Positions 4,123 through 60,499 of a DNA stretch of 64,000 nucleotides are shown here, one piece after another. Position 1 is the stretch's first letter, and every line of letters begins with the position of its first letter. The stretch is taken from contig NC_087077.1 of the NCBI RefSeq assembly GCF_026151205.1, positions 62,001-126,000 on the forward strand, given 5' to 3'. The stretch is from Bolinopsis microptera (taxonomy: Eukaryota > Ctenophora > Tentaculata > Lobata > Bolinopsidae). The notes beneath the pieces are model-generated. The model was not told the origin of the DNA, ran no database searches, and worked only from the letters and a program-made list of their open reading frames with translations. The position numbers and the translations under genes were made by a program.

Positions 4123-4154
<32 letters not shown>

Positions 4155-7396: not shown

Positions 7397-7720
7397 CCCT
7401 CTAAGAACTTGCCCTCTAAGTAATTTTAAGGAAACCTTATCCATGAAGTCCCTCTCTTACCTGATTTGTCTTTTGTCAAGGGTTATTATTTGATTTGATT
7501 TATTCTATATTCTGGCAGTACACCATTATCAGAAATAAGAATTGCAGTCTGCGCAGGGAATTGCTAGTCATAGATAATGCACGATACCTATTAAAATACA
7601 AGTTGAAATGAAATGATATTTGATTTGCTTATTTCAATATGCCAGCTTTTCATTTGTTGGTAGCAAGATCAAGTAAAATCTATATTCTTAAATTATCATT
7701 CTTCAGAGTTCCTTCCAAGG

Positions 7721-9214
7721 ATGACTTTTACTGATGAAGACATTGCAATCTTGAAGTCATCCTTGGCTGCACATGGCCAGGAACATCTTTTAGCTCACTG
7801 GGAAGACCTATCATCAGATCAAAAAGATGATCTTTATCGAGATATACAGTCGATTGATTTTACCAATCATCTGAAGAGCTTTAAAAGATGTATGCAAAAG
7901 GAACTCTCTGCACCTGGAAAAGAGGATTATCTCAAGCCACTACCCCCTGATGCATGTGAAAGTGTATTCATTTCAAATAAGATCAATGAAAAGTGGACTA
8001 ACCGAGGGCTGAAAGAGATAAGTGAAGGGAAAGTTGCTCTGCTTCTAATGGCTGGTGGTCAGGGTACACGTCTTGGTGTCCCTTATCCTAAGGGAATGTA
8101 CAATGTTGGATTGCAAAGTGGCAAGTGTTTATATCAATTACAGGCTGAGCGTGTACGTAAGCAAGAACAATTGGCAGCTGAAATGTACGGATCCTCCAAA
8201 GCTATTAGATGGTACATAATGACCAGTGAACATACAAAGAAAGCCACTGTTGACTACTTCAAATCTAATGGATGGTTTGGTTTGTCTGAAGAAAATATCA
8301 TCTTCTTTGAACAAGAAATGATACCTTGTTTATCTCTTGATGGAAAAGTGATAATGGACAGCAAGTTTTCGATCGCTAGAGCACCAGGTGGTAATGGTGA
8401 TCTGTATAGGTCCATGGGAAATGAAGGGGTGCTGCAGGACATGCTCAAAAAGGGTGTCAGGAGCGTACATTGTTATTGTGTTGATAACATTTTAAACAAA
8501 GTCCCTGATCCACTTTTCATTGGATGCTGCCTTGATCGACAATCGGATTGTGGTGCAAAAGTAGTGAGCAAAGCATACCCCACTGAAGCTGTTGGTGTTA
8601 TTTGTGAATGTAATGGGACCTGGAAAGTTGTAGAATATAGCGAAATTTCAAAGGAGACCGCTAATATGGTTGACAGTGAAGGAAAATTATTATTCTCTCA
8701 AGGAAACATATGCAATCATTATTTCACAACTAGTTTTCTAACAAAAGTGATTGAGGGAAAAGAATCCCAACTCATTCATCATGTTGCTAGAAAGAAAATT
8801 CCAACTATCAACAGTTCAGGAGAAAGAGTTCTGCCAACCGAGATCAATGGTATCAAGATGGAGAAGTTTGTGTTTGATGTATTCCAGTTCTCAGAGAAGT
8901 TCACCGTTCTCGAGGTAGCCAGAAACGAAGAATTTTCTCCTCTCAAGAATCCTCCTGGAGCCCCAAAATGCTCACCTCAGACATGCTTGGAGGACCTTTC
9001 CAATCAACACAAGAGATGGATCATCAGAGCTGGGGGAACTTTCAAAAATGAAGGACTATGTGAGATCTCACCCTTGGTGAGCTGTACTGGTGAAAACCTT
9101 GAAGATTTAGTCAAGGACAAATTTTTCAGTTTGCCTTTACATCTTGAAGTGACACACAAAAATGGTTACCACAACGGACACACCGGTACAAATGGGTTAC
9201 ACAGCAAGCTTTGA
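7721..9214 (+). CDS. UAP1: UDP-N-acetylglucosamine pyrophosphorylase
   Basis: This enzyme joins GlcNAc-1-phosphate and UTP to give UDP-GlcNAc and pyrophosphate in the cytosol, the last step of the hexosamine pathway. The 497-residue uninterrupted ORF matches the usual ~500-residue length. The nucleotide-binding loop LLMAGGQGTRLG is at residues 108-119, MTSEHT near 167-172, and the substrate-binding APGGNGDLYR at 221-230; VDNILNKVPDP and a late PLKN motif also fit the family. The start is the first ATG after a pyrimidine-rich CAG at 7704-7706, leaving a 14-nt leader, so a 5' intron or trans-splice acceptor is likely. AATAAA at 9555-9560 may serve the 3' end. Animal UAP genes usually have introns, so the intronless coding region is notable. 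PGM3, the preceding enzyme, lies 2.9 kb downstream on the same strand. Confidence 0.96.
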   Translation: MTFTDEDIAILKSSLAAHGQEHLLAHWEDLSSDQKDDLYRDIQSIDFTNHLKSFKRCMQKELSAPGKEDYLKPLPPDACESVFISNKINEKWTNRGLKEISEGKVALLLMAGGQGTRLGVPYPKGMYNVGLQSGKCLYQLQAERVRKQEQLAAEMYGSSKAIRWYIMTSEHTKKATVDYFKSNGWFGLSEENIIFFEQEMIPCLSLDGKVIMDSKFSIARAPGGNGDLYRSMGNEGVLQDMLKKGVRSVHCYCVDNILNKVPDPLFIGCCLDRQSDCGAKVVSKAYPTEAVGVICECNGTWKVVEYSEISKETANMVDSEGKLLFSQGNICNHYFTTSFLTKVIEGKESQLIHHVARKKIPTINSSGERVLPTEINGIKMEKFVFDVFQFSEKFTVLEVARNEEFSPLKNPPGAPKCSPQTCLEDLSNQHKRWIIRAGGTFKNEGLCEISPLVSCTGENLEDLVKDKFFSLPLHLEVTHKNGYHNGHTGTNGLHSKL

Positions 9215-10493
9215 GAAGGAGCTCACTTGAATTGTAGTGTTATATAATAGTCGTTTTACCGATGATTGATTTTTTTCGGAACAAGCCTTAGGGTTAATAT
9301 AAGTCTTTGCAATGATTTTGTGTGGCAGCGATGAAACTGATGAACATTTTACTTAAACGATCACTCATTTTCCCAGATCAGTATGTTGCAACTAGTTAGA
9401 ATGCGTAATTCGTGTAGAATATCAAGGTAGCTAGAGGATTTAATAGCTGAGAATCATCACAATATGCTGTAGTGTTATGTTACATGTTCAACTTAAGGAG
9501 CTGACGAACCTTTAATCAATAATATTTGTAATTTAATGTTTAAATCTCCGATTGAATAAATATCAGATTCTTAGAACCTGTTGTAATAGTATGTATGATA
9601 TAAATTTGAAACAAAAGTTCATTTTGTTAATTAATAAACTTCACAAGCAGTCTTCACACCTTACACTTGCACTTAACAAATATCATTTGTCATGCATGGT
9701 TTATCTACTCGGATTGATTAGATTGGCCGGTATTCTACCCTCCCAAAGATTATTTATATCTAAATGAGAAAACAAATTTGCGTGAAACTATATTTGTTCA
9801 TTACTGTCGTGAAAGTTTGGCCTCACTTTTTTCTCTCTTCGTGCTCGGAAATTTCAGTTGAGTAGTGCATGATTACTCAGAAAATGGTTTCTTTTATGGG
9901 CATATAAATATGATCGTTTGTTGATTTTTTGCCATTGTTTAAGTAAATTCAAGAAATAATTGATTTTCAAAATATATAATTTTCATCTGGAGATTTTAAG
10001 ACCATGGTCACCAATAATTATTAAAGCTGCATTCAATTCGTTGTTAATTTAATCAAACAAGTAACTTTGCTATTGAATTGAGAATATGAAAAATCGTTAT
10101 ATTAAGTTACAGCGAGGTCATCGTTACAATTTGATTGATAATTAGACTGAAAAAATATAAATTATAATGGCTGCAATAATTGAAATCATAAAATAGAATC
10201 ATGATTGGTTTACAAACTCTATAATAATAAGTCTTAATACAGTATGTTAAAAGTTTCGTTAATAGTTCAAGATATTTCAAATTAATTTCGGCCAGTTTAT
10301 TAGACAGTATGATTTTATTTTAGCTAAACCGGTTTAATCTTTAAAAACTTTGCACGTGTATGCTGTGTTTCATAGTTGATTTCGTTCATAGTTCATTAAT
10401 CATTATATTATATTTCCGCAGACACTGTGTTTAATTGATTTAAGTGGTAAGAGTGAGTATATCACATGTGACCAGTTAAGCCTTATAACTTAT
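9215..10493 (+). other. UAP1 3' flank, AT-rich, no gene seen
   Basis: This stretch contains the probable UAP1 3' UTR with a polyadenylation-type AATAAA at 9555-9560. Beyond that is AT-rich sequence without recognisable coding or repeat features, up to the tail of the antisense LINE. Confidence 0.5.
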
Positions 10494-11900
10494 AGTAGTA
10501 GTAGTAAATCTTTCAAAGTACGAAATATCTCTTTAAAAGAGCATCCTAGGCACCTTATAGATATCAAAACGCATAAAAAAGAAAACAAAAACATCAACCA
10601 TCTTCTAACTTCTTCCACTCCTCCCTATCTAAAGCTAAAAATCTAAGGTCTTCGAAATCAGTCAAATTCTTAAGTCTAATATCAAGATTTCTACTAGTCA
10701 AGTCTTTTCTAATAACATCTAATAAGTTTAAACATGGTCTACCCCGTCTCCCTTCCATAAAAATATCAGAATTTATAGCAAATAACATAGAGGTGTATGC
10801 TGGTGAGTCTTCCTGTCCTCTTAAGATATGTCCTAACATTCTCCATCGAAACTTAGAGACTCTCACAGACAAGGGAGTGACATAACAACGAGCATAGAGT
10901 GCCTCATTAGAAATAACCCCAGTAGGCCATCTGATGTTGAGGATTCTTCGGAGGTGTTTGCGATGAGCAATATCAAGTTCATTCAACGAAGCTAGTGGTG
11001 CAGCCCAGGAGTTGCAGTTGTAGAGTAGAATAGAGACTACTTGTGCCTCGTAGATTTTGATCTTCCTTTGGACTGAAATCTTGCTCTTCATCCAAACTTT
11101 CTGAAATTTACTAAAGGCAACATTACCAAGGAATATTCGATTCTTGATATCCTTAACAGTGCACATCAACGATCCTAAAGTTTTGTTAGAGCGCCACTCT
11201 TCATCACCTCTATACACTTTTCCAACAATCACCTTGCGTTTAACAGTGGGTTTAGGATCTGCTAAATAAAAATGGACAAATTCAGTCTTGGAAGAATTGA
11301 TATGAAGGTCCCACTGCTGGAATATATCTTTAGCGATAGGAAGCATTTCTTTGAGTGGAGCAAGTTCAGTGTTATTAAAGTCAATATCATCAGAGTATCC
11401 TGTTTCGAGTGGCATGAATTCTTCTGAGATAGGAGGATTAGGGATTGGATGATTCACTGGGTAAGGTGTTGATGATACTTGGGAGAGTACAGATCTGAGG
11501 TGAATAAGTGCAGCGGCTTCAACAACAGTAAATAGATTACCTGATAGTGCATCTCCTTGAAATGCTCCAGTTGTGCTTTGGAACTCAATTGATACAGTAT
11601 TATTGACTTTTACTTTCAACACTGTGTTTGATAGTAGGAGCCGTACCATCCTAATTTCATCACTAGTACAGCCAGCATCTTCAAGAACATTGAGTACTGT
11701 TTCTCTGCTGATGGTGTCAAAGGCACTTGACATGTCTATACTCATTCTGTGGTAGCTCCAATGCTTTCTAAGTACCACTGAGGTTAGCATACGTTGAGAC
11801 CAAATTATATCGCCACAACTTCTACCTCTCTTGTAAGCACTTTGTGTAGGACCGGTGTACTGATCTAGCTTGCCTTGGATACGTTTTAGGGTAATCATTG
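10494..11900 (-). pseudogene. 5'-truncated RTE-like LINE, reverse transcriptase
   Basis: A 434-residue minus-strand ORF (11898-10594) encodes most of a non-LTR reverse transcriptase. IDMSSAFDTI (first catalytic Asp) is near residues 54-63, AFQGDALSG at 112-120 replaces the commoner VPQG box, and the catalytic YSDD is at 168-171. The C-terminal FRWRMLGHILRG motif is of the kind seen in RTE-related LINEs. The endonuclease and the first RT blocks are missing, so this is a 5'-truncated copy. A short (TAC)n-like run at 10495-10507 may be the 3' tail. The RT reading frame is intact, suggesting a fairly recent insertion between UAP1 and PGM3. Confidence 0.85.
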
Positions 11901-12107
11901 ACAGGTTATAAGGTTAAAAATAAAGATACGCCCCAGTTTTCCAAATGAGAACCTATCATACTGTAATACCCCAAAAAGCAGTCAATAGAGTGAACTCTTG
12001 CACACTTCCATAAATCCAAAGGCATTTGGCGTGAAATTTAAAAGTCATATCACGACTTAAACCCACACCTCAAATTTAAAAGTTTAAACACTTCACCTGA
12101 TCAGATA

Positions 12108-15100
12108 ATGTCTGGAGACGGAGTGTCTCCTCTGGAGGTTACACTAGAGAGTGTCCGGGCCACTGCCTCCAACTACAACATCCCCCCAGATGTGAAGTAC
12201 GCGTACGGAACAGCTGGATTCCGGTGTAAAGCGGATATATTACCTCCTGCTGCTTATAGAATGGGATTACTCGCTGCCCTCAGGTTATTATAATACAATG
12301 TGCTCTCGATTATTTGTACTAGAAATTTGATCAAGAGCATTGGGAAAAACATTTGTGCAAGGCATTCACCCAAATTTTTCGAATAGATCTGCGAGGAATT
12401 CAAAGATATTCAGTTGGAGTAATTACTTTGCAGTTATCCAGATTTAATTATCAGAGCTAAATCAGTGAAGGCAACTATCGGAGTGATGGTGACAGCCTCC
12501 CACAACCCACCAGAAGATAATGGTCTGAAAGTGGTGGAACCCCAGGGTGAAATGCTGCTGCCTAGGTGGGAGCATTACTCTACTCAGCTGTCAAACACTG
12601 ACTCTGCTTCTCTTGTTGAGGTTAGCATGGGTGTGGGTGTGGGTGTGGGTGTGGGTGTGGGTGTGGGTGTGGGTGTGGGTGTGGGTGTGGGTGTGGGTGT
12701 GGGTGTGGGTGTGGGTGTGGGTGTGGGTGTGGGTGTGGGTGTGGGTGTGGGTGTGCTTTGTTTGTTTCTATCAATTTCGGTTCGTTAATCTGTAACGTAA
12801 GTGTGGTGATACTTGACTTTGTTCTACTTATTCATTACACTACGTCTGCTAGGATGTGGCACTCATTATTACATGGATTGAATTTCAGTCATTGGAGAAG
12901 AACTTCAAGTTCTTTTTGTTGATCAAATTAACAAAATAATGTTTGCAAAATTCTGCAGCCGATCAAATTTTCGTATTGGGCACGTATCAACATTCAACAA
13001 AGTTATAATATACACAATGTTACGTTATGTGTACATTGTACTCACCACATATAACTACTGTAAAGTGTAAATCCTTGAACATAATATGAACATTAAATAT
13101 AAAATAACAATTTTACCAAAACGTACACCAGGTGCTGCAGGACTTTTCTGATGAGGCGGAAGTGACCCTGACGAGCTCACGTGGGAGACTGGTAGTAGGA
13201 CGGGACACTCGGGAAAGTGGACCTGATATTGTGGCTGCTGTTACTGCTGGCGCTGAAAATTTACAATGTAAGGTAAGATTTTATGACCATTTCCTCCGTG
13301 GAATAAGATATTTTGAATCACGTTTAAGAATTTAAATTTGTAATCCAAAACAGTTGAAGTACTACGTGATTGAAATTTAGGTGCAGGTCCGAGTTTTTAA
13401 TCTCAATTATCTGAGTACCACTCCTCTTAGTGGGCGAGAAGGATGTAACACGTGGTTACTGACACGTGGTTACTGACACGTGGTTACTGACACGTGGTTA
13501 CTGACACGTGGTTACTGACACGTGTCTGATTACAGGTACATAACATCGGAGTGTGCACCACACCCCAGCTACATTGGATTGTCAAGCAAACCAACATCTC
13601 CAAACCTAACACTCTCCAGGACTACTACCGGACTTTTGCTGACAGCTTTATACATTTGTATGGAAAGGATGATGTGAAACACTCAATTAAGGTTCGGTTT
13701 GTTTAATAATGGGAAATAGTAAATTAAAGACGTTTAATTTCTCTATTAAATCAAATCTAACGGGTGATATTCTTAACAGCTAGGTTAAGACAATTATGGC
13801 AGCGCAGTTCGCGTACCAAGAAGAATACGAGTTTGCACTTAAACTAGTCCAAGAAGTATCCCAGACGTTCACTCCCGCGTTCCACACCAACAAGGATATC
13901 GAGACTAAATCATTCGGATCGGATCTTGTCACCAAAACAGACCAAGCAGTCGAGGCAGCAATATTCAGTGCGATAAGAACAAAATATCCCTCTGATAACA
14001 CAATCGGAGAGGAATCTTCGGAGGGAGCAATATTCGATAATCGCAGAACTTGGATCGTAGATCCAATAGATGGAACAACTAACTTTGTCCACAGTAACCC
14101 CGAGTGTTGCATATGTATAGGGTTCACCGTGGACAAGACCTCCAAGTTCGGTGTTATCTACTGCCCAATACTCAGGGATCTCTACACAGGTAGGCGGGGT
14201 TTTGGAGCGGCTCTGAACGGCCGCCCTATCAGAGTGTCTGAAACAACAGCCCTGAATAGAGCGCTGGTGTCCACCTACGTGATACCAAGTAAAGGTATGG
14301 GGTTGAGGGAGAGTATGGAGAGTATCCAGAGGGTGAGTGGGGAGAGAGAAGGGTGTTGTCATGGTCTCAGGCTGGGAGGGAGCAGCGCTATCATGATCTG
14401 CCAACTTGCTGCTGGTTAGTTTACACCTACTTTTACTTCTAGTTTAATTTCTATTGGGTTTTAAATTTTGTGGCATTAGCCAAAATCATATCCAGAGCTG
14501 AGGGAATATGACTATGATTTCAAAATCAGCCCCCAAAATTAAGTCTTTCTGTTGTACATTATTTTGTATCCCTAATTTAATTCTCGTTTCAGGAAATGTT
14601 GACGGATTCTGGTTAGAAGGGCTCCACATCTGGGACATGGCAGCAGCAGTGGTCATAGCAAGTGAAGCAGGAGGAGTAGTGATATCCACTCTACCCGGTG
14701 AAGAGTTTGATCTGACTCGGAGAAGAGTGGTAGTGGCCAGCACTGAACAGTTGGCTGGCGAGATAAGAGATAGGATTGTCAGGGCGCCAGATGACCTTTT
14801 TAAGAGAGAACATTGCTGAAATTAATAGTTTATTTATAATACGTTATCCATTAGATGCATAGAGCATAGAGCTGGTTTATTTTTGATTTAAATATGATTT
14901 TTAGATTTTGTACTCATTGATGTTATATTTTTATTCTATGGTGAATTCGTGTTTTCGGTTTATATTATACATCAGAAAATCGGTTTACATACATCGGAAA
15001 ATCAGACTTATCGTATCTTTGTTTGCATCCATTTTTGCAGAATTTTGAAGTTTGTGATTCAAAATAATTACCACCCGATGAGTATTTTAATTAACACCAT

Positions 15101-15479
15101 TTTGTAAATTGAAATATTATTTTCAATAAAAATCATCAAAATCACTCTGTTGACTACCGTGCTTGGTTTGCAGTGAAAAGGATGTAATTACTGCAAAATG
15201 TACAGAATCGGTCATAAATTTCAAAAATGTTCCGTCTTTCGAATTGATCACGTTCTCATAATAATAAATTTTAATATTAACGGTTTCAACACGTATTATA
15301 AATAATATAATATAGATTATTTAATTAGCCCGTTGTTTCAGGTAGACTGCGCTAACGGGGTGGGAGCTATTGCCCTGCGGACCATAGCACCTTTACTATC
15401 CGATCATATCGACATCACTATCTGTAATGATGGTTCTACTGGGAGACTCAACGAAAACTGTGGAGCTGACTTTGTTAAG
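12108..15479 (+). CDS. PGM3: Phosphoacetylglucosamine mutase, first five exons (incomplete)
   Basis: PGM3/AGM1 converts GlcNAc-6-phosphate to GlcNAc-1-phosphate, the substrate of UAP1. Five exons with matching GT-AG phases are seen: 12108-12283, 12455-12620, 13132-13272, 13536-13691 and 15342-15479, giving 259 residues. The phosphoserine loop VTASHNP is at 71-77 (Ser74) and GRDTR at 137-141; VDCANGVGA and GADFVK belong to domain 2. The family is normally ~540 residues. The metal-binding DGDADR exon, the sugar-binding EANGHG loop and the C-terminal RPSGTE domain were not found before the next gene or elsewhere in the window. Either the gene is truncated or a very long intron follows. The start codon lies 3 nt after a CAG acceptor-like site. 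Intron 4 contains an inositol monophosphatase gene. Confidence 0.9.
12628..12754. repeat. (GTGTGG)n hexanucleotide array at a splice donor
   Basis: About 21 perfect copies of GGTGTG start only 7 nt inside PGM3 intron 2, right after the donor GTTAGC at 12621. The transcript would carry a G-rich run immediately next to the 5' splice site. Confidence 0.95.
13448..13526. repeat. 14-bp tandem repeat carrying CACGTG E-boxes before PGM3 exon 4
   Basis: Five to six tandem copies of ACACGTGGTTACTG end about 10 nt upstream of the exon 4 acceptor. Each copy holds the palindrome CACGTG, the canonical bHLH (Myc/USF-type) binding site. The array may be a chance microsatellite or an intronic regulatory cluster, and the IMPase start codon lies only 270 bp further on. 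Confidence 0.9.
13796..14819 (+). CDS. Inositol monophosphatase, nested in a PGM3 intron
   Basis: This IMPA-family enzyme hydrolyses inositol monophosphates to free inositol with Mg2+. Two exons (13796-14414, 14593-14819; phase 1 junction) give 281 residues, the usual family length. Metal ligands are visible: GEES at 71-74, the DPIDGTTNF signature at 89-97, and the C-terminal [13 protein letters not shown] motif whose Asp is residue 221. The gene lies complete, in sense orientation, within PGM3 intron 4; its ATG is 104 bp after PGM3 exon 4. A CAG at about 13778-13780 gives a 16-nt leader. Splicing PGM3 exon 4 to that site would hit an in-frame TAA, so a fusion is not expected. An AATAAA at 15125-15130 could end the transcript. 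IMPA1 and IMPA2 orthology cannot be separated by eye. Confidence 0.95.
14820..15341 (+). other. IMPase 3' flank within PGM3 intron 4
   Basis: AT-rich sequence containing a candidate poly(A) signal AATAAA (15125-15130) and the PGM3 exon 5 acceptor at 15339-15341. No further coding sequence was seen. Confidence 0.5.
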
Positions 15480-16690: not shown

Positions 16691-16724
16691 CCTTAAACAA
16701 AAGTACATTTAATTATATACTTAC

Positions 16725-19680
16725 TGAAGCACTTTTCAAACCCGTAACCAGACTTGTGGCCCACTGGACACTTTTCACAAATACTCCTACTTGAGTCATG
16801 ATACGTCTTTGGTGGACAAATCTTACAGAATTCTATCTCCGTGATGAGTTTGTCGATCGATAAACACTTGACTTTTCCAACTTTACACTTCCATTCGCTG
16901 CACTCTGTCATGTTAACAGAACCTGCTTTACACTTCCATGTTATTTCACCAGTTTCTCCATCCGCCCACATATCTTGGGCTAGTGTAATGTCCAGGTCTG
17001 GTGGCAGTTGTTCTTTTACTCTGCAACTGTTTGTGTCATCACATTCAAATGATGTGTCATGAAACTGCATGCTATCAACCTTTACACAGGTTGCAGTAGT
17101 GGTCGTGTCTGAGTTGGGACCAGATGGTGTGTATCCTGGAGCACATGTCACCCTCACAGCGTCTCCTAACTTTACTTTATCTACAGGCTTCCCTCCGACT
17201 GTGAAAGTGAGTTTGGGGTCCCTTGAACAGCCATAAACAGTGATCTGGACATCAGTGTCAGAATATGGCGAGCTAGGTCTAGGTATAGGTCTAGACATGA
17301 CTCTACAAGTGAAAGTTGTGTCTTCTGTAGCTCCTTTAACCTCCAGAGTAGCTGTCTGCCTATCACCATCCAAGGTTCCAGAGTTTGGAATGTAGTTACT
17401 GTTAGAGTCCGCATAAATTACAGTACCTGAAGGTTCCAGCCAATAAACGAAAACTCGGTTTGTTATTCCCGCTATTTCACAGGTTATAATGGCGTCTGTA
17501 CCGGATTTAACCTCAGCGCTGAAGGTTGTTACCTCGTACACATTCAGTTGAACATCTGTTTCAGAACTTGTTGAGTTGGGATACTTTCCTGAAGTTACTC
17601 TGCAGGTGTAGGTTTTATCCTGATCTACATCGTGTCCCTCCACCTCTAGAGTCATAAACTGCGTCTGCTCGTTATCACGTTCTACCGTTGTTGGGTCAAT
17701 ACTGTTGCCTCCGCTTGTCAGCCATTCCACCGTCATTAAAATTAATATTCCTCTTGATCTTATCCAACACTCAATCGTTGCATTCGTACCCGCTTTTGTT
17801 TCAAAATGCATCGGGTAAACGTCTGAAATTAAAAAAAAGCGAATTAATTTGTCCATTTTTTAAGAATTGAACAGTAAAACTTGTGTGTATAATTTCAGTT
17901 TCACTTACCATACACCTCCAGCTGAGCTAGCTCTTGCTGTTGATCCTCTGGATCTTTACCGGTGACCGTACAAGTGTATGTTTTATCCTCAGTTACCACA
18001 TCCCCACTGATAACTAGTTTTGTTGTCTGTTTTCCTGAATCTGTTATCTTCCCAAATTCTTGAGTATAATCATCTCCAAAGTCTGTCGATCCTGACCAAG
18101 TGATTGTGACGGGATCTTGGATTCCAGTTACAGTGCAAGTTAGAATGCTCGCTGTGCTAACATGAACTTCTAGATTGGTTACTTCCACATCTGAAATAAT
18201 ACCATTTTGATATTTTAATTTAGTTATTTAACCTAATTCGTTATAAACTTAATAAATTCAATTTACTTAATTAACTTGTAAGCTATTAAAAAATCTGATC
18301 TATCAGTGAAGAGCTCAAACATTGAGTTCCTCACCGGCCCGCCTCTTTACTCCTACCAATAGAACTTGCTGCATAGCTCTACTCTACTCTACTCTACTCT
18401 ACTCTACTCTACTCTACTCTACTCTACTCTACTCTACTCTACTCTACTCTACTCTACTCTACTCTACTCTACTCTACTCTACTCTACTCTACTCCACTCC
18501 ACTCCACTCTACTCTACTCTACTCTACTCTACTCTACTCTACTCTACTCTACTCTACTCTACTCTACTCTACTCTACTCTACTCTACTCTACTCTACTCT
18601 ACTCTACTCTACTCTATTCTACTGATACTCTACTCTACTGATACTCTACTCTACTCTACTCTACTCTACTCTACTCTACTCTACTCTACTGATACTCTAC
18701 TCTACTCTACTGATACTCTACTCTACTCTACTCTACTCTACTCTACTCTACTCTACTCTACTCTACTCTACTCTATTCTACTCTACTATACTCTACTGAT
18801 ACTCTACTCTACTCTACTCTACTCTACTCTACTCTACTCTACTCCACTCTACTCTACTCTACTCTACTCTACTCTACTCTACTCTACTCTACTCTACTCT
18901 ACTCTACTCTACTCTACTCTACTTTACTCTACTCTACTCTACTTACCCCATCTACAAGCCTGAGGACTGGTTCCTTGTCCTGCTAGCACTGTTTTACCAC
19001 CCGTACACGCATCACACTGGGTTACTTCTCCTCCCTCACTGTATTCTCCTGCAGCACAGCTCTCACATTGGCTTGTTCCTGTGCTCCAGTACTGACCGGG
19101 GGAACATGTTCCTGCCAGGGTATACTAGTTACTGTTTATAAATACTCTTCTCTATTATTATTTAATACATTTGATTTATTTTATTTTATATTTAAGGTAT
19201 TACTGATAGTTGGTTATATATCCGGTTGGATATATTATTATATATATATCCAACTATCAGTATTTCAATCATGAGACTAATAAACAGCGAACTACCCCAT
19301 CATTTTATATTTAAGGTATTGTTTGATGCTAGGATCTTTTTTGTTATTTTTTACTAAATGTGTGTGATCATCTAATAGTGTAGGTACTGTCACACTGTGA
19401 CAGTACCTACACAATTAGATCTAAAAATAAGTATTTGTAGCAATTCCAGTTCTTCAGCAGGAAGATGGGAAGATAATTGTAATATTATTTTTTAACTTAC
19501 CAATTTCATGCAGTATCCTATACTCCAATGCTACAGTGGTTTTTAGAAACGTGAACATCGGGTCGAAGTTGATAAAATTCGCACAATATTTAGGATAGAA
19601 GTATTTGAACACTTCCTTTCCGTTACAGGTCATGGTAAGGAAACCATCCGATTTCTTCAAGGTCCATATCTGTATGTCAT
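16725..19680 (-). CDS. Secreted/surface protein with GCC2-type, Ig-like and CCP-like modules (partial)
   Basis: Four minus-strand exons join in phase 1: 19680-19501, 19111-18947, 18190-17909 and 17822-16725. The first encodes a small module with WTLKKSDGFLTMTCNG. The second is a GCC2_GCC3-type cysteine module (TCSPGQYWSTGTSQCESC). The third is an Ig-like domain with SILTCTV...KTYTCTV. The last, 366 codons, carries two more Ig-like domains (TIECWI/KTYTCRV, IITCEI/TTFTCRV), a CCP-like segment (GDAVRVTCAPGY), cysteine-rich sequence, and the start of another GCC2 module (CEKCPVGHKSGYGFEKC). Every exon is symmetrical class 1-1, typical of shuffled extracellular modules. Signal peptide and membrane anchor were not found, so both ends lie in unseen exons. 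Adhesion or immune-type roles are possible but not shown. Confidence 0.8.
18376..18942. repeat. (TCTAC)n pentanucleotide array, ~570 bp
   Basis: More than 110 copies of ACTCT, with rare variants (ACTCC, TGATA interruptions), fill most of the intron between 18947 and 18190. On the transcribed minus strand it reads (TAGAG)n and begins right after the donor GTAAG. Both plus and minus reading frames are open only because of the repeat. Confidence 0.97.
19130..19450. other. Intron with inverted-repeat segments
   Basis: The stretch contains TTACTGATAGTTGG near 19200 matched by CCAACTATCAGTA near 19250, and GTGTAGGTACTGTCACA matched by TGTGACAGTACCTACAC at 19377-19413. Both can form hairpins. The second is a near-perfect 17-bp stem. 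It lies in the intron between the first two recognised exons of the minus-strand gene. Confidence 0.7.
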
Positions 19681-21820: not shown

Positions 21821-21919
21821 CACTAAACCTATACCTTCTTTCACAGAGGGGATACCTTACTCCGCTCCAAAACCTGGAAAGCCCCTAGGGGCCCCCCTAA
21901 GAGTTTGCGCCCACTTTGC

Positions 21920-23335: not shown

Positions 23336-23339
23336 AGTG

Positions 23340-25735: not shown

Positions 25736-25738
25736 TAT

Positions 25739-30185: not shown

Positions 30186-30189
30186 GGAA

Positions 30190-31595: not shown

Positions 31596-31597
31596 AG

Positions 31598-43621: not shown

Positions 43622-45413
43622 TTTATCACCAATTCAATACATAATCAATAAATATATATCCGAATAAATTTGATTTAAAATTAAATTATACAAGTATGCT
43701 AGCAGCTAGCGCGCTTGTATTTGATAAATATTCACGCTGTTAAAATGGGTTTTACCACACCGCCACTCACATTAGCACAGTTGGTGAGCGGACCCAGGCG
43801 CTGTTAAGCTTTTATGAGCCCTGGTTGACTGCTCTGAGAGTGGCGACAGGTCTGACATTAATTTTATCTTAGTTTAACCTATATTCCAATAAAATTTTAG
43901 TTTTGAGTTATAATTACGTATATGATTTTTATGCGATATTTAAGTTACAGCTGCTCGCAATACATTATTGCTTAAAAATTGTTAAATATGCTCGCTATAC
44001 GCTTAATTTTAGATACCGTATGTATATATACATATCAGCTCATAATACCAAATAACAATAATAAATAAATTAAAAGCATGAAGAGGTCCAAAACCAATTC
44101 AAGCATGACACCAGGTTGATTACATTGACATCGGAAGCTGCAAGCTTATTAACGTTTGATTCCACGTTGATCCGTTATTATGCAGTCACCTTCAGGCGGT
44201 GTCGACGGATCATGCGAAAAGGGTTTTTTACAGGCTGTGCCCTTACCATAATTAAACTGAACCATTGCCTGATACGATGTAAACATGAGTGTTGGATAGG
44301 TGAGCCGCGCAAGCGCTCGCGCGCAAGAGAGATTAATTTTGTTCCCAAAGAAATTCGACTCTCCTAATGAATGCTTCTTGTGTGCTGCTTTTTGTTGATA
44401 TTAGAACTTCTTCTAGAGTTCTAGATAGGAATATGAGTCAGTTGGTAAGATAGCTTTACGAAATTGTGTACGATTCCTTTCAAATTCTGATGATACTTTT
44501 GTATTTCAGGGCAGCTAACAACAATAGTATAATACTAAATATTTGTATTCCATCTTTAGTTCATTATAGTTTTGTAATTTATTTAATTATACTAACAATA
44601 TTTCTTAATTATAGGTACAGTATAATGAAAGCTTCTGTACTGGATCGATACAAAACAGCATGTGCCACAATGGGAATAGCTCAAAATTCATTCATTTGCA
44701 AGGGATTGGAGAAGCAGATTCTTCATGTAAGGGTAGGCAAAATTCAGCCAGAAGAATGGACACCTATCATTAAATGTTTGGAGAACAATTCATCTATCAC
44801 AGAGGTTATTATAGAAGCCACAGTTCCCACCCACTGTGCATATGTGAAAAGATCATCATTCTGAATGAATGGTATTCCTTGCTTGCCATTTTATTACACA
44901 CATTACATCAGTTATTCAATAGCTAGAGCTTCCGCTTTGCTCTGTCGAGTTTTTATCTCACAGTTTTAGTAAATTTCTATACTATACGTAAAATCGGCAT
45001 GATAACCAAGCTCGCTAATTTACAACATTTTTCATAAAAGTTGAATTTGTTATAATTTGAAATATTGTCGTTTTACTTTTTTAGTTTCACGAGGCACCCA
45101 ACTTTTGAGTTAACTTTAATTGAAATTCAAATCCTTAACTCGAACTGAAACCAAACTTAACTAAACTTCACTGAAACATGAAACCAAATAAATATAAAGT
45201 CTAACGGATTTTCTGTAGAATTGCGAGCGTGGACTTGGAGCGTGCTAAATCACTCTACACTCGATCTTCGAGATTTTTTTTTTAAAGTTGATTTTGAAAC
45301 CAACTCGAACCGAAGTATTTTCGGACGCTGACTCTGCATTCCAATTCATCCCCATGACATTTTAAATAGGGTTAAACTTAAAATGCTCCCCTGGTGAGAT
45401 ATCGACGAAAAAC
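43622..45413. other. Intergenic region with a possible isolated exon
   Basis: Mostly AT-rich and featureless. It contains a GC-richer patch (about 43755-43850, with ACCCAGGCGCTGTTAAGC) that looks like part of a dispersed repeat, and the candidate first exon listed at 44623. Confidence 0.45.
44623..44820 (+). CDS. Possible first coding exon, LRR-like protein (tentative)
   Basis: An open segment begins with an ATG ten nt after TTCTTAATTATAG, a plausible acceptor. The translation starts MKASVLDRYKTACATMGIAQ and includes a stretch around GKIQPEEWTPIIKCLENNSSITEVII. The spacing of LxxxLxxNxxIxxVxI resembles the start of a leucine-rich-repeat protein. No following exon was found and the donor is unclear, so it could be a gene remnant. 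Confidence 0.3.
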
Positions 45414-45417
45414 TTAA

Positions 45418-45513
45418 CGGGTGATAAACGTAACATATTGGTTTCAAATATCAGGACCGTCGACGAGTCCAACTCGGTGTGCGTCCTGGTAGGTTATAAC
45501 ATATAAACCTACA
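45418..45513 (+). mobile_element. Left-end fragment of TTAA-type MITE
   Basis: After TTAA (45414-45417) comes CGGGTGATAAACGTAACAT, then TTTCAAATAT, GTCGACGAGTCCAACTCGG and CGTCCTGGTAGGTT, matching the left arm of the 46579-46896 element. The right terminus was not identified. Confidence 0.6.
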
Positions 45514-46574
45514 ACGAAAAACTGTCATAGCTCGATCACGTGATATGACCGTTTATTGTTTAAGGAAGTTGGTCTAATTTATCGTTAGGGTTTCGGCATA
45601 TGCTTTTTGTCAGGGATGGGATCAGATTGCATGGAGGGTTAGGGTTTCCGGTTTCGAATAGTGGTTCATATCAGGGTGCAGGGCCACCTAGAGAATTGGT
45701 TGAACTCAGTGCAGTGCAGTGCGCGTGTATCGCGTTGTCCACAATTGTTAATGTTGATGAACTAGCCCGGCGCACGCTACTTCATATCACTTGCCTCTGG
45801 CCAAGTTAACATTTCGGGCCTAGTTAACATGAACTTAACATTTCGAGAAGGAATCGGCGCGCGCTACTTCGACAAAATCTAGACGAGTAACATCCGTTAA
45901 GTGTTAAGTGTTAAGGTTACCTGGCGCCCCAATATATGTGCGCGGCGTTATTTTCAAGCTTTCTGAGTACGTGAGTACAATTAAATAGATTAGCAAGCTC
46001 TAGAAGTAGATACGTAAGTGTAATAAACATTATTTGATACGCGGTCAGAAGTGAATCGCGCTACAACATATCAAATGTATAATCAGAATGGTGATTGATT
46101 AAATTGTATTACATCGCGACCCCCAAAGCTAAGTTGTTTCACTAACCCTCTGTAGAGTTTCAACGATACAGGGGAACTGCGCACTCGTACGCAGCGGGTC
46201 ATACAACGTATGACAAGTGATTGACGGATATAATATGTATGATGATATTCATTAAATTTTGTTTGCATGTGGCGCGAATCTAAGAAGCAACTTCAAAATG
46301 ATTACACTATTTGATTTTTAATTAGCAGAATTTAATAAATTGTGAATAGTTGGAGCAAAAAGGCTTTACGGGCTTTTTCTATTCTATACACTAAAGACTT
46401 GTATAACGTCGCGTCGTGACCCTCATTATAGTGGCGTTTTTACGATACAGAGGGAGCCGCGCACTCGTGCGCGGCAGGTCATACAACGTATGACATGAAT
46501 AATAGGTCATACAACGTATGACAACTAAAAACAACATACAAATACATTTTTTAAATATTTTTGATTGTAGAATT
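45514..46574. other. GC-patchy repeat mosaic
   Basis: No gene was recognised. GCGCGC-rich short motifs recur, and two copies of a module GCGGGTCATACAACGTATGACA (near 46195) and GCAGGTCATACAACGTATGACA (near 46475) are each preceded by a GATACAGRGGGA motif. They look like members of another short dispersed element. Confidence 0.5.
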
Positions 46575-46578
46575 TTAA

Positions 46579-46896
46579 CGGGTGATAGACGTAAAATATT
46601 TATTTCAAATATTAGAACTCTTGGCGCAAACTTTTCAGCCAATCAGCATCAAAGGCACTTTCTGCCACAATTGACTCGTAATTCGACCTACCAGGATCAC
46701 CGTCGACGAGTGATAGAGTCCAACTCGGCGCGCGTCTTGGTAGGCTACAAATATGAAATATAATTATTCTTTTAATCTTTTTTAACCTGAGAAATGAAAC
46801 GTACATATTTAATTTTGCATTACGTTTATAATTGTAGGTTTACAACCTACCAGGACGCGCGCCGAGTTGGAACAGATATTTTACGAGTATCACCCG
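46579..46896. mobile_element. TTAA-flanked MITE (piggyBac-like target)
   Basis: A 318-bp element has inverted ends CGGGTGATAGACGTAAAAT and, reversed, CGGGTGATACTCGTAAAAT, each next to TTAA (46575-46578 and 46897-46900). Subterminal inverted blocks CCAACTCGGCGCGCGTC and GACGCGCGCCGAGTTGG also pair. TTAA target duplication is the hallmark of piggyBac-type transposons, though the terminal bases are not the classical CCC. It is non-coding. Confidence 0.72.
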
Positions 46897-46900
46897 TTAA

Positions 46901-48000
46901 CATACGAGAAGTATTATTTGATGCGCGCGCGACCCAGTAGTGCATCGCGCTACAACATACAGCATAGCGCTAAAACGCGAAACAAGCGCGTCACGCAGTA
47001 CACGTATATACACATGGCTATGTTCTATGTGAACTCAAAATTTAGCAAACAATATTTTAAAAATTTGTTGAGTAAGTTAATTTTTCGCTTATCGAAAAAT
47101 TTTGTATAAGCATTATATTTAAGTCGCTAAACATCAAAAATTAAGAAAGTTAAAAAATTAAGCCAATTCCTTAATCATTAATTTTCTTATGATAAAAAAA
47201 TATATTCACAATTTTAGACTTTCGCGCGCATTTAAATTTTGGTACTTTGATGCCATGTGCAAATTTTCCTATATACATATATATTTTACATATATATTTT
47301 GTAATATGAACTAATTTAAATGTTTTTAATACGATTGTTAATTGACGATGTCAATTCATCTCAGCTCGGCGCGGCACAGTAGTGCATCTCGCCGATCTAG
47401 AGAGAAGCCTCATTGAGTGCGCGGCGCGGCACAGTAATGCATCGCGCTACAAATACGATTGTGGACAAAAATTATTTAAAAAATTAACAAATGTTTTAGG
47501 CGCGCCGCGCATATTATATGTTTGCTAATTTACACCTTTGTATGAAAATCGAGCGCTAAAAACTACTGTTAAATTTTCACAAGATAACCTTCATATCAGG
47601 AAGTTAGCTTTAGCCTAAACTCTTTACGCTTTTATCTTATTAAATTTTGTTTTTACTTAAATTTTGTTTTAATTAATTAAACACACGTGTTCGGACACGA
47701 CGTTGTCAATTTTCTGCTAGCTACTACTTTTACATCCCTTGAATGTCTTCATCACAACACAAAAGCTCCGGTCGCCGTGTCCATGCTATCACAAGAGTCT
47801 CCAGGAGTCCAACATCACAGAATCATTTCGGCCTTGTTATGTGCGTTTTTTGTAGTCTAAAATCTAACTAACTCAATTCTGTATGCCCTATTTTTTAACT
47901 TGTGAAAAACAAATCTGAGAGCACCTTGATAATAAATTTTCATGTGAATTTATTTTCTTGAACAAATCCAAGAGTCCTTTAAGTTTGTCCTCTAAGGGAT
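46901..48000. other. AT-rich intergenic sequence
   Basis: Apart from copy 3 of the short GC-rich element (47338-47452) and a GAAACAAGCGCGTCACGCAGTA patch near 46980, nothing recognisable was seen. Confidence 0.45.
47338..47452 (+). mobile_element. Short GC-rich element, copy 3, with 9-bp flanking duplication
   Basis: A 115-bp copy of the element at 4785 and 5736, starting TTAATTGACGATGTCAATTC and ending ATCGCGCTACAA. It is flanked by ATACGATTG at 47329-47337 and 47453-47461. It lacks a short internal stretch after CGCCGATCTAG that copy 1 retains. Confidence 0.85.
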
Positions 48001-49108
48001 GGTGTTGAAGGGTACATCCTGCAGTACAGGATCACAGTGGTCCGCAAAGGGGGGTCAGGCTATAATAGACCCCTTCTAGGTCATTTTGTTGTCTCAGGAT
48101 ATGTTTCCTGGAGTATTTTCGCCCAAAAAGACGTTTAAAAGCACTTAGAAGACCTCAAAATATACCAGGAGGGCTAAAAATGAGAAATCAAAAAATTGAT
48201 TTTTTCCAAAAATACCCTGAAAATTTTAGAATTTGGCCGCTAAATTTGTTTAAAAGGCCTGACTCAAAATTCTACTCCACAACTTAAAGTCCTCAGGCAA
48301 TTCTACGTTGATTCTGAAAATTTCATTAAAAAATATTGAAACCCTATTGAGTTATATTATTTTGAGCGACATCAGTTTCGCGAATGTCGCGAACTGAGAT
48401 ATGGGCAATTTTGTTCATTTTTTGCCATTATTTGAACACAGAATCCACAGTTAGGTAGATATTGAGCTGATATTCATAGAGAATGTGCAGTATAGGCTTA
48501 CCTAACATATAACATTTGTCTCATCCAAAAATATTTATAATTGGCCAAATTATGGGCTAAAATCTATAAAAATCTATCAAAATTGGCGCGTATGCCCAAA
48601 TATGGTCATATAGTATTTTGCTCATAACTCAGCCAATTTTTATCAAATTATGATAAAACTTTATATTTGTGTTCAAGAGACTAGAAGCTACAAGTAAAGC
48701 ACCCCAAAGCATGGTTTTGAGCTTGTTAAGGTGATTTTGCATAATTGGGATAATTGGGACCAAATATGGGCGTGGCTGATTTAAAAAAAAGTCCCAGCTT
48801 GTCCCAGGTTGAATTTTTTATGGCTAGTTAGATAATTATCTGAACTTTAGGATGCCATAGGTGGTTTAGGTGCACTCGAGCGCACTACCTAACATTTTTT
48901 TATTTTAAAACCAAAATTTTAGTTAAAAAGTGGGTCTAAAATTTGAGGGTAAATGAAAAATCAACCAAAATAGATATCAACATGAATTTTTTTTCATTAG
49001 ACAGGTATTCAACACGTACAACAGCAACAACAAGAGTAAGTGAATGCAAATATAGACTGCTTTATGAATATCCAGTCAGATGTAGGCCAATTTTTACTTC
49101 AATTATAG
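48001..49108. other. AT-rich stretch left of the foldback element
   Basis: No coding sequence was recognised. GATCACAGTGGTCC near 48030 resembles, in reverse, GGACCACTGTGAGGAT just right of the foldback element (53173-53190). The two may be parts of one older repeat split by the insertion. Confidence 0.4.
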
Positions 49109-49158
49109 CCTGGTGGGGGGGGTGTCACGTCCGTCTATGTCCGCCTGTCTCATAGAAT

Positions 49159-49268
49159 CCAAAAAGGACAGGACATAGGCGGACATAGACGGACATAGGC
49201 GGACATAGACGGACATAGGCGGACATAGGCGGACATAGACGGACATAGGCGGACATAGGCAGACATTA
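49159..49268. repeat. (GGACATAGRC)n minisatellite
   Basis: About ten tandem decamers GGACATAGGC/GGACATAGAC form the inner part of the left hairpin arm of the foldback element. A matching pair of decamers lies at 53130-53153. Confidence 0.95.
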
Positions 49269-49414
49269 ATGGACACCTAAATTGCTAAATAAAATGTTCA
49301 ATTTTTGCTGTTATAGGGGGATCATGTTTTTTGTCCGTTCGGTACCCTATATTTTCAAAACGGACAAAAAATAGAGCGGACAAAAATGGACAAACACAGA
49401 CAAAAATGGAAATA

Positions 49415-50110
49415 ACATTTAGATGCTTCCTCCTCCTACTCTTCCTCCTCCTCCCCCTGGGTCTTCCTGATCTTCCTCAGTCCTCTTCCTCCTCCCCTCC
49501 TCAGTCCTCCTACTCCTCCTCCTCGTCCTCAGTCCTCCTCATCAGTCCTCAACAGTCCTTCTCCTCCCCAGTCCTCCTCCTCCTCCTGAGTCCTCCTCAT
49601 GGGTCCTCCTCCTGGGTGCTCCTCCTCCTCTTCATCCTTCTCCTCTTCCTCCTCAGTCCTCAGTCCTCCTCAGTCCTCCTCCTCATCCTTCTCCTCAGTC
49701 CTCCATCCTCCTCCTCAGTCCTCCCCCAGTCCCCCTCCTCCTCCTCCTATTCAGTCCTCCTCCTCCTCCTTCTCAGTCCTCCTCAGTCCTCCTCCTCCTC
49801 CTGAGTCCTCCTCCTCCTCCTCCTCCTCCTCTTCCCTCTCAGTCATCCTCCTCAGCCACCCTCCTCAGTCCTCCTCAGTCCTCCTCCTCAGTCCTCCTCC
49901 TCCTGGGTCCTCCTCCTCCTCTTCATCCTCCTCCTCTTCCTCCTCGGTCCTCAGTCCTCCTCCTTCTGGGTCCTCCTCCTCATCCTTCTCATCAGTCCTC
50001 CTCCTCCCCAGTCCTCTCCCAGTCCCCCTTCTTCTCCTCCTCCTAATCAGTCCTCCTCCTCCTCCTCCTCCTCCTCCTCAGTTCTCCTCAGTCCTCCTTC
50101 TCTCTCTCTC
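49415..50110. repeat. TCC/CAGTCCTCC-rich low-complexity tract, left
   Basis: Nearly 700 bp of TCCTCC with interspersed CAGTCCTCC gives long pseudo-ORFs rich in Ser and Pro. They reflect the repeat and not a protein. A related tract in the same orientation lies at 52260-52915. Confidence 0.95.
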
Positions 50111-50436
50111 TGTTTTGGTCAACGGTTTCTGGCCTCCTAGTGAAGAGGGAGGCCTTCTCGCCGTGCCCACAGAGTGTGACTCCTGCTAGCCACACTCCAG
50201 GACTCCCTAAGTATATACAAAAACATAGAATAATAGATATCAACGCAACAGACCTCTGGAGTCTCGAAGCTGTTACTACCTTGCTCAGAGCAAACCCACT
50301 TCAGATGTTCTTCTTTGGCGGGCAGGCGAGGGACTTCCGAGCATGGTTCACACCTGAATATGTGTCACTATCTGAGATAGTCCTGTGTGGGTCTAGTGTA
50401 TGATTGTTTATGAACCTTGGTGTATGTCCTAGATGC

Positions 50437-51215
50437 TTATCCAAATAGATCGTCTCTGTCAAACCTTGTTGACTGTTCCACGAATTTGATAATGTGGTCG
50501 AGTTTACTATTGATGAGTTCCTCAATTGTTAGGATGGGTTTACCAAATATCTTCATTCTAGTTGTCATCAGCTGGATGTATTCACATAGGAAGTGTTGTG
50601 ATGTTTCTGCTTCCCCTGGGCAGTGTTCACAGTCTTGTGTTTCGAAATTGGAGTTGTTTGCTACCGTCTGGAAGTATGCTAGTGGGCTGTGTCCTGATAG
50701 TAGCCATGTTAGCCATCTGATGTGAGTACCTGTGATGTTAATTTTCTTGTACCTGTATTTGTTGAGGAAAAATGTTAGTGGGGTTTTTCCTTTATCACTG
50801 AGTGCCACCTGTTTATACTTCTTGATATGGAGATTGAAGAGGTAATCTTGTATTTGGGTGTTGATTATGCCTTCCGAGAGTGGCCGTGGGAGGAAGGGTT
50901 CAGGTCCAATGGGGGTGCTGCTGGATCCCTCCCTTGCTAGTTCGTCAGCTAGTTCATTACCGTGTACTCCTTCATGTCCTGGGACCCACCTAAGTTCTAC
51001 TTTGTGGGAGGTACCTAATGTGTTAAGTTGGTCAGCAATGTCCAGCACTAGTCTGGAGCTGATGCTGGTGCTGGTAAGTGCTAGGAGTGAGGCCTGGGAA
51101 TCTGAGTAAAGATTTATGAATGATGTTGTACCTATATTTTCAATGATCCAAATACTAGCCATGTGGAGAGCAAAGAGCTCGCATTGGTAAACTGTTGCTA
51201 GTTTACCAAGTTGAT
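50437..51215 (-). pseudogene. LINE fragment with RNase H domain
   Basis: The minus-strand ORF encodes a LINE-type RNase H. CELFALHMA just upstream of the first Met holds the catalytic Glu, YSDSQAS the second Asp, and WVPGHEGVHGNELADELA the His/Asp end of the domain. A C-terminal zinc-knuckle-like C..C....H...C motif (CEHCPGEAETSQHFLC) follows, as in I/Jockey/R1-type elements. The reverse transcriptase is missing. The copy lies inside the foldback element between its two TCC-rich tracts. Confidence 0.85.
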
Positions 51216-51239
51216 AACTGACTCTGTGGTAATCCTAAG

Positions 51240-52260
51240 TTATCATTAGTCCAGATACTTGCCATGTATAACGCGAATAGCGGGTACGATTTCCTCAATG
51301 AACCTGAAGAAGGAATATCTGTCCTGAATTGATACCATGTAACGTCGAGCTTAAAAATGAATCAAAAGTTCGAGTAAATCGTTAAACGTTGTATGTCCTA
51401 TTTGCATCCCCTAAGCATTGCAATGATGTTTATTCCTGGTCCGGTTAGCTTTGCGTCTCAGAACTAAAGAGGTCCACTATGCTTTAATGAGCTAAGCTGT
51501 CCACCAGGGTACTGTAGATCTAAGGGTTCCCCGTGTAATGGGGCAGGCTGTGATAAGGCATCTCTGCAGGATGTCCGAGATGAACTGATTCGAGTGTTGA
51601 GAACTTCCGCTGTAGAAACTGAATAGAACCAGTAAGGATGTCAGTCAAACTCTGCTGCTACTAGATGATTGTAGAGCGTCCAGTCACACTTCAATAAAGA
51701 GTGTGGCAAAACTAACCCGGTCCCCTGAAAAGTGGTTACTGGAGGAAGAAGTGCCAGGAATTCTCGTTATCAGTGTGTCCTCGTAGTCAGAGTTGAAATC
51801 CCTAATTCTGTCTTATTACGAGCCTGTGTCTAGCGTGTGTCAGCCCTTACGCATTAGCTGTCTTAACTGAAAAGACCTGAAAAGTGGTTACTGGAGGGAG
51901 AAGTGCCAAGACTACTCATTATCAGTGTGTCCTTGTAGTCAGGATGAGCGAATTGGAATCCCTAGCTCTGTGGTGGGTTACTTCGATGGGACCTGAAAGC
52001 TGAAAGAGAATTTCCTGGTGATTTAATAGCTCTTAGAGCTAGGTATCTGTGTCTAACGTATCGTCATTTGTGTGTGTACTATTTTGTAACCTGATATCTG
52101 AAAGAGAAATTTCCTGGTGCTTGGTAGCTGTTATTGTTGACTTCCTGGTTCCCATGGGAACTTTGAGTTGGCAAGTCCCAACCTTAGTACTCAACAAGAG
52201 AGCACACCACCCGTTAGTGCCAACCAGGCCACACCACGTGGAGGTTCGGAGAGGATTTCG
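51240..52260. repeat. Internally duplicated non-coding segment
   Basis: Two imperfect copies of a segment starting CCTGAAAAGTGGTTACTGGA, with CAGTGTGTCC and GGAATCCCTAG later, occur at about 51723 and 51887. Two copies of CTGAAAGAGAAATTTCCTGGTG follow near 52000 and 52096. The function is unknown. It lies between the RNase H fragment and the right TCC tract. Confidence 0.6.
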
Positions 52261-52915
52261 TGACCCGTCCTCCTTCTCATTTCTCCTAAGTCCTCCTCCT
52301 GAGTCCTCCTCCTGAGTCCTCCTCCTCTTCCTTCTGAGTCCTCCTCATGAGTCCTCCTCCTCCTCCCTCTCAGTCATCCTCCTCATTCATCCTCCTCAGC
52401 CATCCTCCCCAGCCATCCTCCTCAGCCATCCTCCTCAGTACTCCTCAGTCCTCCTCCTTCTCAGTCATCGTCAGTCCTCCTCCTCAGTCCTCCTCAGTCC
52501 TCCTCCTCCTCCTTGGTCCTCCTCCTCCTCCTCCTCCTGGGTCTTCCTGGGTCTTCCTGATCCTCCCCAGTCCTCTTCCTCCTCCCCTCCTCAATCCTCC
52601 TCCTACTCCTCCTCCTCGTCCTCAGTCCTCCTCATCAGTCCTCAACAGTTCTCCTCCTCCCCAGTCCTCCTCCTCCTCCTGGGGCCTTTTCCTGGGTCCT
52701 CCTCTTGGGTCCTCCTCCTCCTGGGTCCTCCTCCTCCTGGGTCCTCCTTCTCCTCCTCAGTCCTTCTCCTCCTCCTCCTCAGTCCTCTTCCTCCTCTTCC
52801 TCCTCCTCCTCCTCCTCCTCCCTCTCAGTCATCCTCCTCAGTCATCCTCCTCAGCCATCCTTCTCAGCCATCCTCCTCAGTACTCTTCAGTACTCTTCAG
52901 TACTCTTCAGTCCTC
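52260..52915. repeat. TCC/CAGTCCTCC-rich low-complexity tract, right
   Basis: Same composition and orientation as the tract at 49415-50110, including shared longer stretches such as GGGTCTTCCTGATCCTCC. The two tracts are direct and not inverted, so they probably arose by internal duplication within the element. Confidence 0.95.
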
Positions 52916-52919
52916 AAAA

Positions 52920-53095
52920 TGTTTGTCCGCTAATGTCCACCAATGTCCGCTAATGTCCACCAATGTCCATCCAAGTCCGCCAATGTCCGTCCGGGTCCGC
53001 CAATGTCCGTCCGAGTCCGCCAATGTCCGTCCGAGTCCGCCAATGTCCGTCCGAGTCCGCCAATGTCCGTCCGTGTCCGCCAATGTCCCAAAAAA
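52920..53095. repeat. (GTCCGCCAATGTCCGTCCGA)n minisatellite
   Basis: Repeats of GTCCGCCAATGTCC and GTCCACCAATGTCC, in the opposite orientation to the left GGACATAGGC array, form the inner part of the right hairpin arm of the foldback element. Confidence 0.93.
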
Positions 53096-53164
53096 CACGT
53101 CCGTTGTCTCATAGAATCCAAAAAGGACAGGACATAGGCGGACATAGACGGACATGACACCCCC

Positions 53165-54060: not shown

Positions 54061-54414
54061 ATCTGTTTCATTGGCCAAATTTGGAAGCTGAAATAAGCAC
54101 TAATTTTGGTGAAGGCATCTCTTAGAAGAATATTGTTGCTTAAAACGTATATTGAAATTTAGATTGTTTTGTAGTGGTTTAAAATATAGTGTAGTAAATA
54201 ATAAATATAGTGTAGTAATATAAGTTCCAAAACGAAGAATACAATCAAACTTCAAACCCCACATTGCTGGGATCCCAGTCAATTTTCATGACTTTTCTAA
54301 TCGAAAATATTTCCTAAGTACCATTCTTTAACCACTGTAACTACCATAAAAACATGCAGTCGTTCACTTGTGTATCCATTCCATTTGATTCCACTATTCA
54401 GTTAGGCCCCAGTT

Positions 54415-60438: not shown

Positions 60439-60499
60439 CTGAAACAGGTTCAAGTTTAAATCAATTTTGAAGACGTAGTTTTTTAGGACTGAATTCACG

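Follow-up and report, generated by a model that had tools for sequence, protein, structure and literature searches.

UAP1 and PGM3 as neighbouring genes in the comb jelly Bolinopsis microptera, with a broken second version that most likely represents another haplotype

Neighbouring genes of amino-sugar metabolism are known from bacterial glmM/glmS neighbourhoods and from the Candida cluster for the use of N-acetylglucosamine (GlcNAc), and nematodes, as well as some other animals, possess spliced-leader operons, with intergenic gaps of about 100 bp in the nematode case. Here we analyze the genes for two consecutive enzymes of the hexosamine pathway, UAP1 and PGM3, which lie side by side on one strand in the genome of the ctenophore Bolinopsis microptera (assembly GCF_026151205.1; 264.65 Mb in 232 contigs) and the pairing of which is presumably unrelated in origin to the bacterial and Candida arrangements. 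The window, that is, the entire stretch of 64,000 nucleotides that was analyzed, is C6:62001-126000, where C6 stands for contig NC_087077.1; coordinates below 64,000 are counted from its first base.

With respect to the structure of the locus, the closest described systems come from other ctenophores. The Hormiphora californensis genome report describes heterozygous inversions and a single-nucleotide polymorphism heterozygosity of about 2% (PMC8527503). In the Mnemiopsis assembly, 127 of the 129 unplaced scaffolds had similar chromosome hits and were taken as alternative haplotypes (PMC11797021), and the Bolinopsis assembly itself is stated to have needed haplotig removal (PMC10232365). The locus described here resembles these cases (PMC8527503, PMC11797021) in the presence of a second version of an interval, an inversion-like geometry and a divergence of a few percent; unlike the Hormiphora inversions, all six breaks of which apparently fall between genes, it is broken inside a gene. 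The reading that we favor, with moderate confidence, is that UAP1 and PGM3 form a real, probably incidental comb-jelly gene pair, the members of which would be transcribed separately, and that the window holds a broken second version of this pair, which most likely represents the alternative haplotype and would have PGM3 interrupted by an inversion breakpoint.

Two versions of the gene pair

Two loci were compared, namely the copy in the window and an intact one (hereafter copy 2) on the minus strand of the same contig, C6:2867313-2881480. The window copy includes the following features:

7721..9214, plus strand: UAP1 (UDP-N-acetylhexosamine pyrophosphorylase; UDP, uridine diphosphate), intact, single exon, 497 amino acids (aa); Pfam UDPGP, 172 bits
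9215..10494, no strand: left part of the UAP1-PGM3 intergenic DNA, with AATAAA at 9555 and 9633
10495..11905, minus strand: 1,411-bp insert with a reverse-transcriptase-type open reading frame (ORF), a short tail of TAC repeats (by eye) and a 5-bp TTATA site duplication; absent from copy 2
12108..12283, plus strand: PGM3 exon 1, with the ATG
12455..12620, plus strand: PGM3 exon 2, with the active-serine motif TASHNP
13132..13272, plus strand: PGM3 exon 3
13536..13691, plus strand: PGM3 exon 4
15342..15479, plus strand: PGM3 exon 5; no PGM3 exon was found further on in the window

In copy 2, UAP1 (2881480-2879987) is followed, in the same order as in the window, by PGM3, which starts at 2878506, across a gap of 1,480 bp in which the longest stop-to-stop frame is at most 76 codons. 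The minus-strand ORF at 10594-11913, judged by eye to be of the reverse-transcriptase type, largely fills the insert of the window copy, and copy 2 is the empty site of this long interspersed nuclear element (LINE), with the flanks joined where the window doubles TTATA. Because copy 2 has the empty site, the insertion postdates the adjacency; both the adjacency and the late insertion are real. An earlier note on this DNA had described UAP1 and PGM3 as same-strand neighbours, separated originally by about 1.5 kb and later by an additional LINE of about 1.4 kb, and these claims are borne out by the order of the intact locus and by the sizes of the insert and of the gap in copy 2. The note had also seen two clear ORFs, which is correct for UAP1 but not for PGM3, of which only five of the nine exons were found in the window. 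Its caution that this PGM3 might be a dispersed duplicate was half right: the PGM3 of the window is indeed a second version, and a broken one, yet both versions include the neighbouring genes and the adjacency is preserved at the intact locus.

The identification of UAP1 is supported by the UDPGP domain, the GGxGTRLG nucleotide loop and near full-length similarity to UAP/AGX-type enzymes, which account for 11 of the 16 PDB matches of the window protein (215-515 bits); the best match is 8yp3, a UDP-GlcNAc diphosphorylase (E 1.5e-153). The window gene and copy 2 show 7 differences, without a frameshift or stop. A genome search for the UDPGP family yielded 9 matches, of which two are the UAP1 copies (the second at C6:2880251-2881321), both intact and each in one open frame, and seven are exons on C7; an intron-bearing UAP1 was not found in the assembly among these matches. 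The C7 exons (PF01704) were considered as the intron-bearing parent of UAP1 and rejected, given that their translations look UGP-type by eye. Given that UAP1 lacks introns and that the assembly yielded no counterpart with introns, a retrocopy origin of the pair appears most likely: a UAP1 retrocopy would have landed upstream of PGM3 and then replaced its parent, which would explain a lone intronless gene beside the intron-rich PGM3.

The PGM3 gene of copy 2 consists of nine exons, from 2878506 to 2867313, that encode 541 aa, with the phosphoacetylglucosamine mutase 2dka as the best PDB match (E 6.6e-129) and five AMG1/PGM models in Pfam (AMG1 domains II and III and PGM domains I, III and IV). 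The window holds exons 1-5, flanked by GT/AG borders and amounting to 259 of the 541 codons, and Pfam recognizes in them domain I only; this domain, with its TASHNP serine loop, is present in both copies. Domains III and IV, the DGDADR metal loop and the RPSGTE phosphate site, all of which copy 2 has, were not found in the window copy. In a six-frame scan, which would miss a motif split by an intron, copy 2 yielded all three of the DGDADR, (F/Y)ExNG and RPSGTE-type motifs, and C6:1-126000, including the window, yielded none. Exons 6-9 are located in copy 2 past C6:2871685, the end of the match with the window; in a comparison of all of window 18941-64000 with C6:2800001-2910000, these exons are not covered by any alignment to copy 2 past window position 19153. 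On these two grounds, the missing second-half motifs and the unaligned exons, we rejected the alternative that PGM3 is complete here and just rich in introns. A few bases past the exon 2 donor, a (TGGGTG)n array (12628-12755; 21.3 units, 100% matches) leaves the frame open, so that exon 2 appears longer than it truly is.

The introns of PGM3 hold a further gene, an inositol monophosphatase that had been missed by the earlier note, and open frames on the other strand:

13796..14414, plus strand: inositol monophosphatase (IMPA-like) exon 1, nested in PGM3 intron 4
14593..14819, plus strand: inositol monophosphatase exon 2, with the stop; AATAAA at 15125 and 15263 downstream
16693..18227, minus strand: two open frames with immunoglobulin domains (Pfam Ig_3, I-set), within what is PGM3 intron 5 in copy 2

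The phosphatase is complete (281 aa from two exons), runs parallel to PGM3 and is also housed in PGM3 intron 4 of copy 2; its spliced product contains the Pfam Inositol_P domain (E 2.8e-66), with the DPIDGT and WDxAA motifs. It is one of several family members, because 9 of the 13 matches in an Inositol_P search are on C13, C2 and C4, the other four being the exons of the two nested copies. The arrangement, with a gene in the intron of another and parallel to its host, is like that of the nested intronic genes of Hormiphora californensis, 2,357 of which are counted in the genome report (PMC8527503); it differs in that the host is PGM3 and the guest a one-intron inositol monophosphatase.

Haplotype or duplication

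The window was compared with the whole genome except for positions 22155-31999, 39501-43499, 49401-54299 and 62301-64000. It matches copy 2 at 6431-10494 (97.7% identity) and at 11906-18711 (95.4%), and two further features define its relation to the rest of C6:

19153..19154, no strand: last base matching copy 2, equivalent to C6:2871685; breakpoint inside PGM3 intron 5
44890..60582, plus strand: block made up of pieces that match C6:2596490-2614833 in the same orientation, interspersed with repeats (searched genome-wide outside 49401-54299)

Pieces of the latter block longer than 300 bp are 89-98% identical to their counterparts, and both matched parts of the window fall in one interval of about 290 kb, 2871685-2888379 being mostly inverted and 2596490-2614833 direct. 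Read backwards, the window would lead down to 2.596 Mb, through about 26 kb, and up from 2.872 Mb, as would be expected at the right-hand end of an inversion spanning about 275 kb. Within the intervening 26 kb or so, 20037-22154 is mobile-element sequence. To the left, the window contig ends at a gap of 100 N (C6:56221-56320), and the contig beyond the gap matches 2800009-2823570 in pieces, at 87-98%.

The divergence between the window and copy 2 is uneven. In UAP1, 5 synonymous differences (311 sites) and 2 non-synonymous ones were counted; the figures are 6 (190 sites) and 2 for PGM3 exons 1-5, and 19 (192 sites) and 4 for the phosphatase. The contrast in synonymous differences between UAP1 and the phosphatase has a Fisher p of 4e-5. 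In 500-bp blocks, divergence ranges from 0 to 4%, setting aside one partial block (4/93) and the block with the repeat array (35/208). Within the interval, the 8 kb that were tested, C6:2840001-2848000, have no second copy apart from a short repeat. Uneven divergence suits recombining alleles better than one duplication, gene conversion being possible as well. We prefer the haplotype explanation: the window copy is most likely a leftover alternative haplotype. It carries the LINE that was gained later and a breakpoint of the inversion type in PGM3 intron 5, and would therefore encode UAP1, the phosphatase and only the first half of PGM3. If the break belongs to a real haplotype, it provides a testable case of an inversion cutting a central sugar-metabolism gene.

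Several points weigh against this account. The scaffold places the two versions 2.8 Mb from each other on a single chromosome, the arrangement expected of a true duplication. Two matches, that of window 3302-4146 to 2886137-2886983 in direct orientation and that of window 42852-43549 to 2821524-2822222, are not explained by an inversion alone. The contig to the left matches in either orientation, and the identity of some of its pieces is as low as 87-89%, which is low for alleles; any of these matches may involve repeats. Other PGM3 copies, including a detached second half, may lie outside C6:1-126000 and C6:2800001-2910000, within which the copies were counted. In addition, the missing introns are the one observation behind the retrocopy origin proposed above, and the lack of introns in UAP1 could be common to all ctenophores.

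A true segmental duplication near the chromosome end, which would leave two UAP1 genes, two phosphatases, and one whole and one broken PGM3, seems to us possible, if rather doubtful. The placement of both versions on C6 would follow from it directly; however, both matched blocks and the neighbouring contig derive from one interval of about 290 kb, the switch in orientation coincides with the scaffold gap, and the first 200 bases of C6 contain no telomere repeat discernible by eye. Window 32000-39500, between the matched blocks, has no other copy apart from short, mobile-element-like repeats, UAP1 and IMPA look constrained in view of their few non-synonymous differences, and the pieces of the neighbouring contig at 87-89% are more divergent than expected of alleles, all of which counts in favour of a duplication. 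The uneven divergence, by contrast, is allele-like, although gene conversion could give the same pattern. As a practical matter, gene pairs observed in raw windows near scaffold ends may be broken second versions, and the intact locus should be found before function is inferred.

Transcription of the pair

Two same-strand genes of one pathway, in a genome with leader-like sites, are reminiscent of the spliced-leader operons of nematodes and some other animals. In contrast to the nematode operons, the gap here is 1,480 bp, not about 100 bp, and co-transcription would be conjectural. A leader form, TTCAACACTACT...AATTTGAG followed by GT, is present at 261 sites in the genome versus 0 for the reversed pattern; the pattern, GT included, was set from two of three fetched loci and from L015, the third locus lacking it. 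This spliced-leader-like sequence resembles the Hormiphora leader as given in PMC8527503. The Hormiphora leader itself, with at most 3 mismatches, was found at 3 sites versus 2 for the reversed control, and at none in the window. Judging from the leader-like sites, trans-splicing is likely to be available in Bolinopsis microptera.

Among the 100 of the 261 places that were listed, 35 leader-like sites at C3:13511056-13533422 form a tandem array with a period near 591 bp, all on the minus strand, and the other copies are scattered over C1-C5. One site, C6:2888956 (about 8955 in L015, plus strand), lies upstream of the intact UAP1 at a distance of about 7.5 kb and is directed away from the gene.

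UAP1 and PGM3 could, in principle, make up a co-expressed unit, possibly a polycistron cut by spliced-leader trans-splicing, that is selected for UDP-GlcNAc supply, but we consider this improbable. The genes are adjacent, on the same strand and 1,480 bp apart, and the excess of leader-like sites over the reversed pattern implies that polycistronic transcripts could be resolved; in Hormiphora, 56% of the Iso-Seq reads carry a leader according to the genome report (PMC8527503). Acceptor-like sites precede the starts of UAP1, PGM3 and the phosphatase: YAG is found within 30 bases before the ATG in 3/3 genes versus 59% of 8,040 nearby ATGs, and a pyrimidine-rich site in 2/3 versus 22%, a comparison that involves three genes only. 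Nematode operons, nevertheless, have far narrower gaps, UAP1 is followed by polyadenylation-like AATAAA signals, and PGM3 houses a gene of another pathway. Furthermore, all six glmS-family matches, which represent GFPT, the first enzyme of the pathway, are on another chromosome, C11, although each is a single exon below the family cut-off. Considering the width of the gap, the AATAAA signals at 9555, 9633, 15125 and 15263, the nested gene and the location of the GFPT exons, the operon or metabolic cluster put forward in the earlier note is unsupported.

A UAP1-PGM3 operon is accordingly unlikely on present evidence, and the pairing of the two genes is most likely ordinary. Each of the three genes, UAP1, PGM3 and the phosphatase, is most likely transcribed on its own, with spliced-leader capping possible. 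Under random gene order, the chance of at least one same-strand adjacent pair of genes for consecutive enzymes is 1-7% per genome, assuming 300-1000 consecutive enzyme pairs and 14,000-30,000 genes; such a pair is mildly unusual in one genome and expected across a scan of many. No report of UAP1-PGM3 adjacency was found among the titles and abstract openings listed for open-licence papers. Should the adjacency prove conserved and the genes co-transcribed, this would be a rare animal pathway operon.

The break in PGM3 and the repeats around it

The end of the match with copy 2 is preceded by a simple repeat:

18377..18943, no strand: (CTCTA)n array, just ahead of the match end

The match stops 210 bases past this 567-bp repeat, and the window contig might therefore be suspected to be an assembler chimera formed near the array, in which case the PGM3 break would exist in no animal. 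This is quite improbable: the match continues for these 210 bases after the array has ended, which places the switch outside the repeat, and a repeat of this length would be short for long reads. Highly improbable, finally, is a single spliced-leader-resolved transcription unit that comprises the last two UDP-GlcNAc enzymes and the nested phosphatase, together with an inversion haplotype that halves the second enzyme, which would amount to an operon of an animal pathway for which a broken allele segregates.

Beyond the break, the mobile element at 20037-22154 is represented on each of the 13 large scaffolds, with 40 of 649 candidates scored, and, in many of the copies listed, its last 330 bp are on the opposite strand beside the main part, which suggests that the window copy is internally inverted. 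Window 32000-36797 consists of almost 5 kb without another match in the assembly at the sensitivity of the search, and the window on both sides of it has second versions on C6. Near the right end of the window, 60582-62300 is a repeat with long copies, 90-98% identical, on C9, C10, C12, C13, C6 and C150; in several places, two copies in the same direction are separated by about 8-9 kb, in the manner of long terminal repeats.

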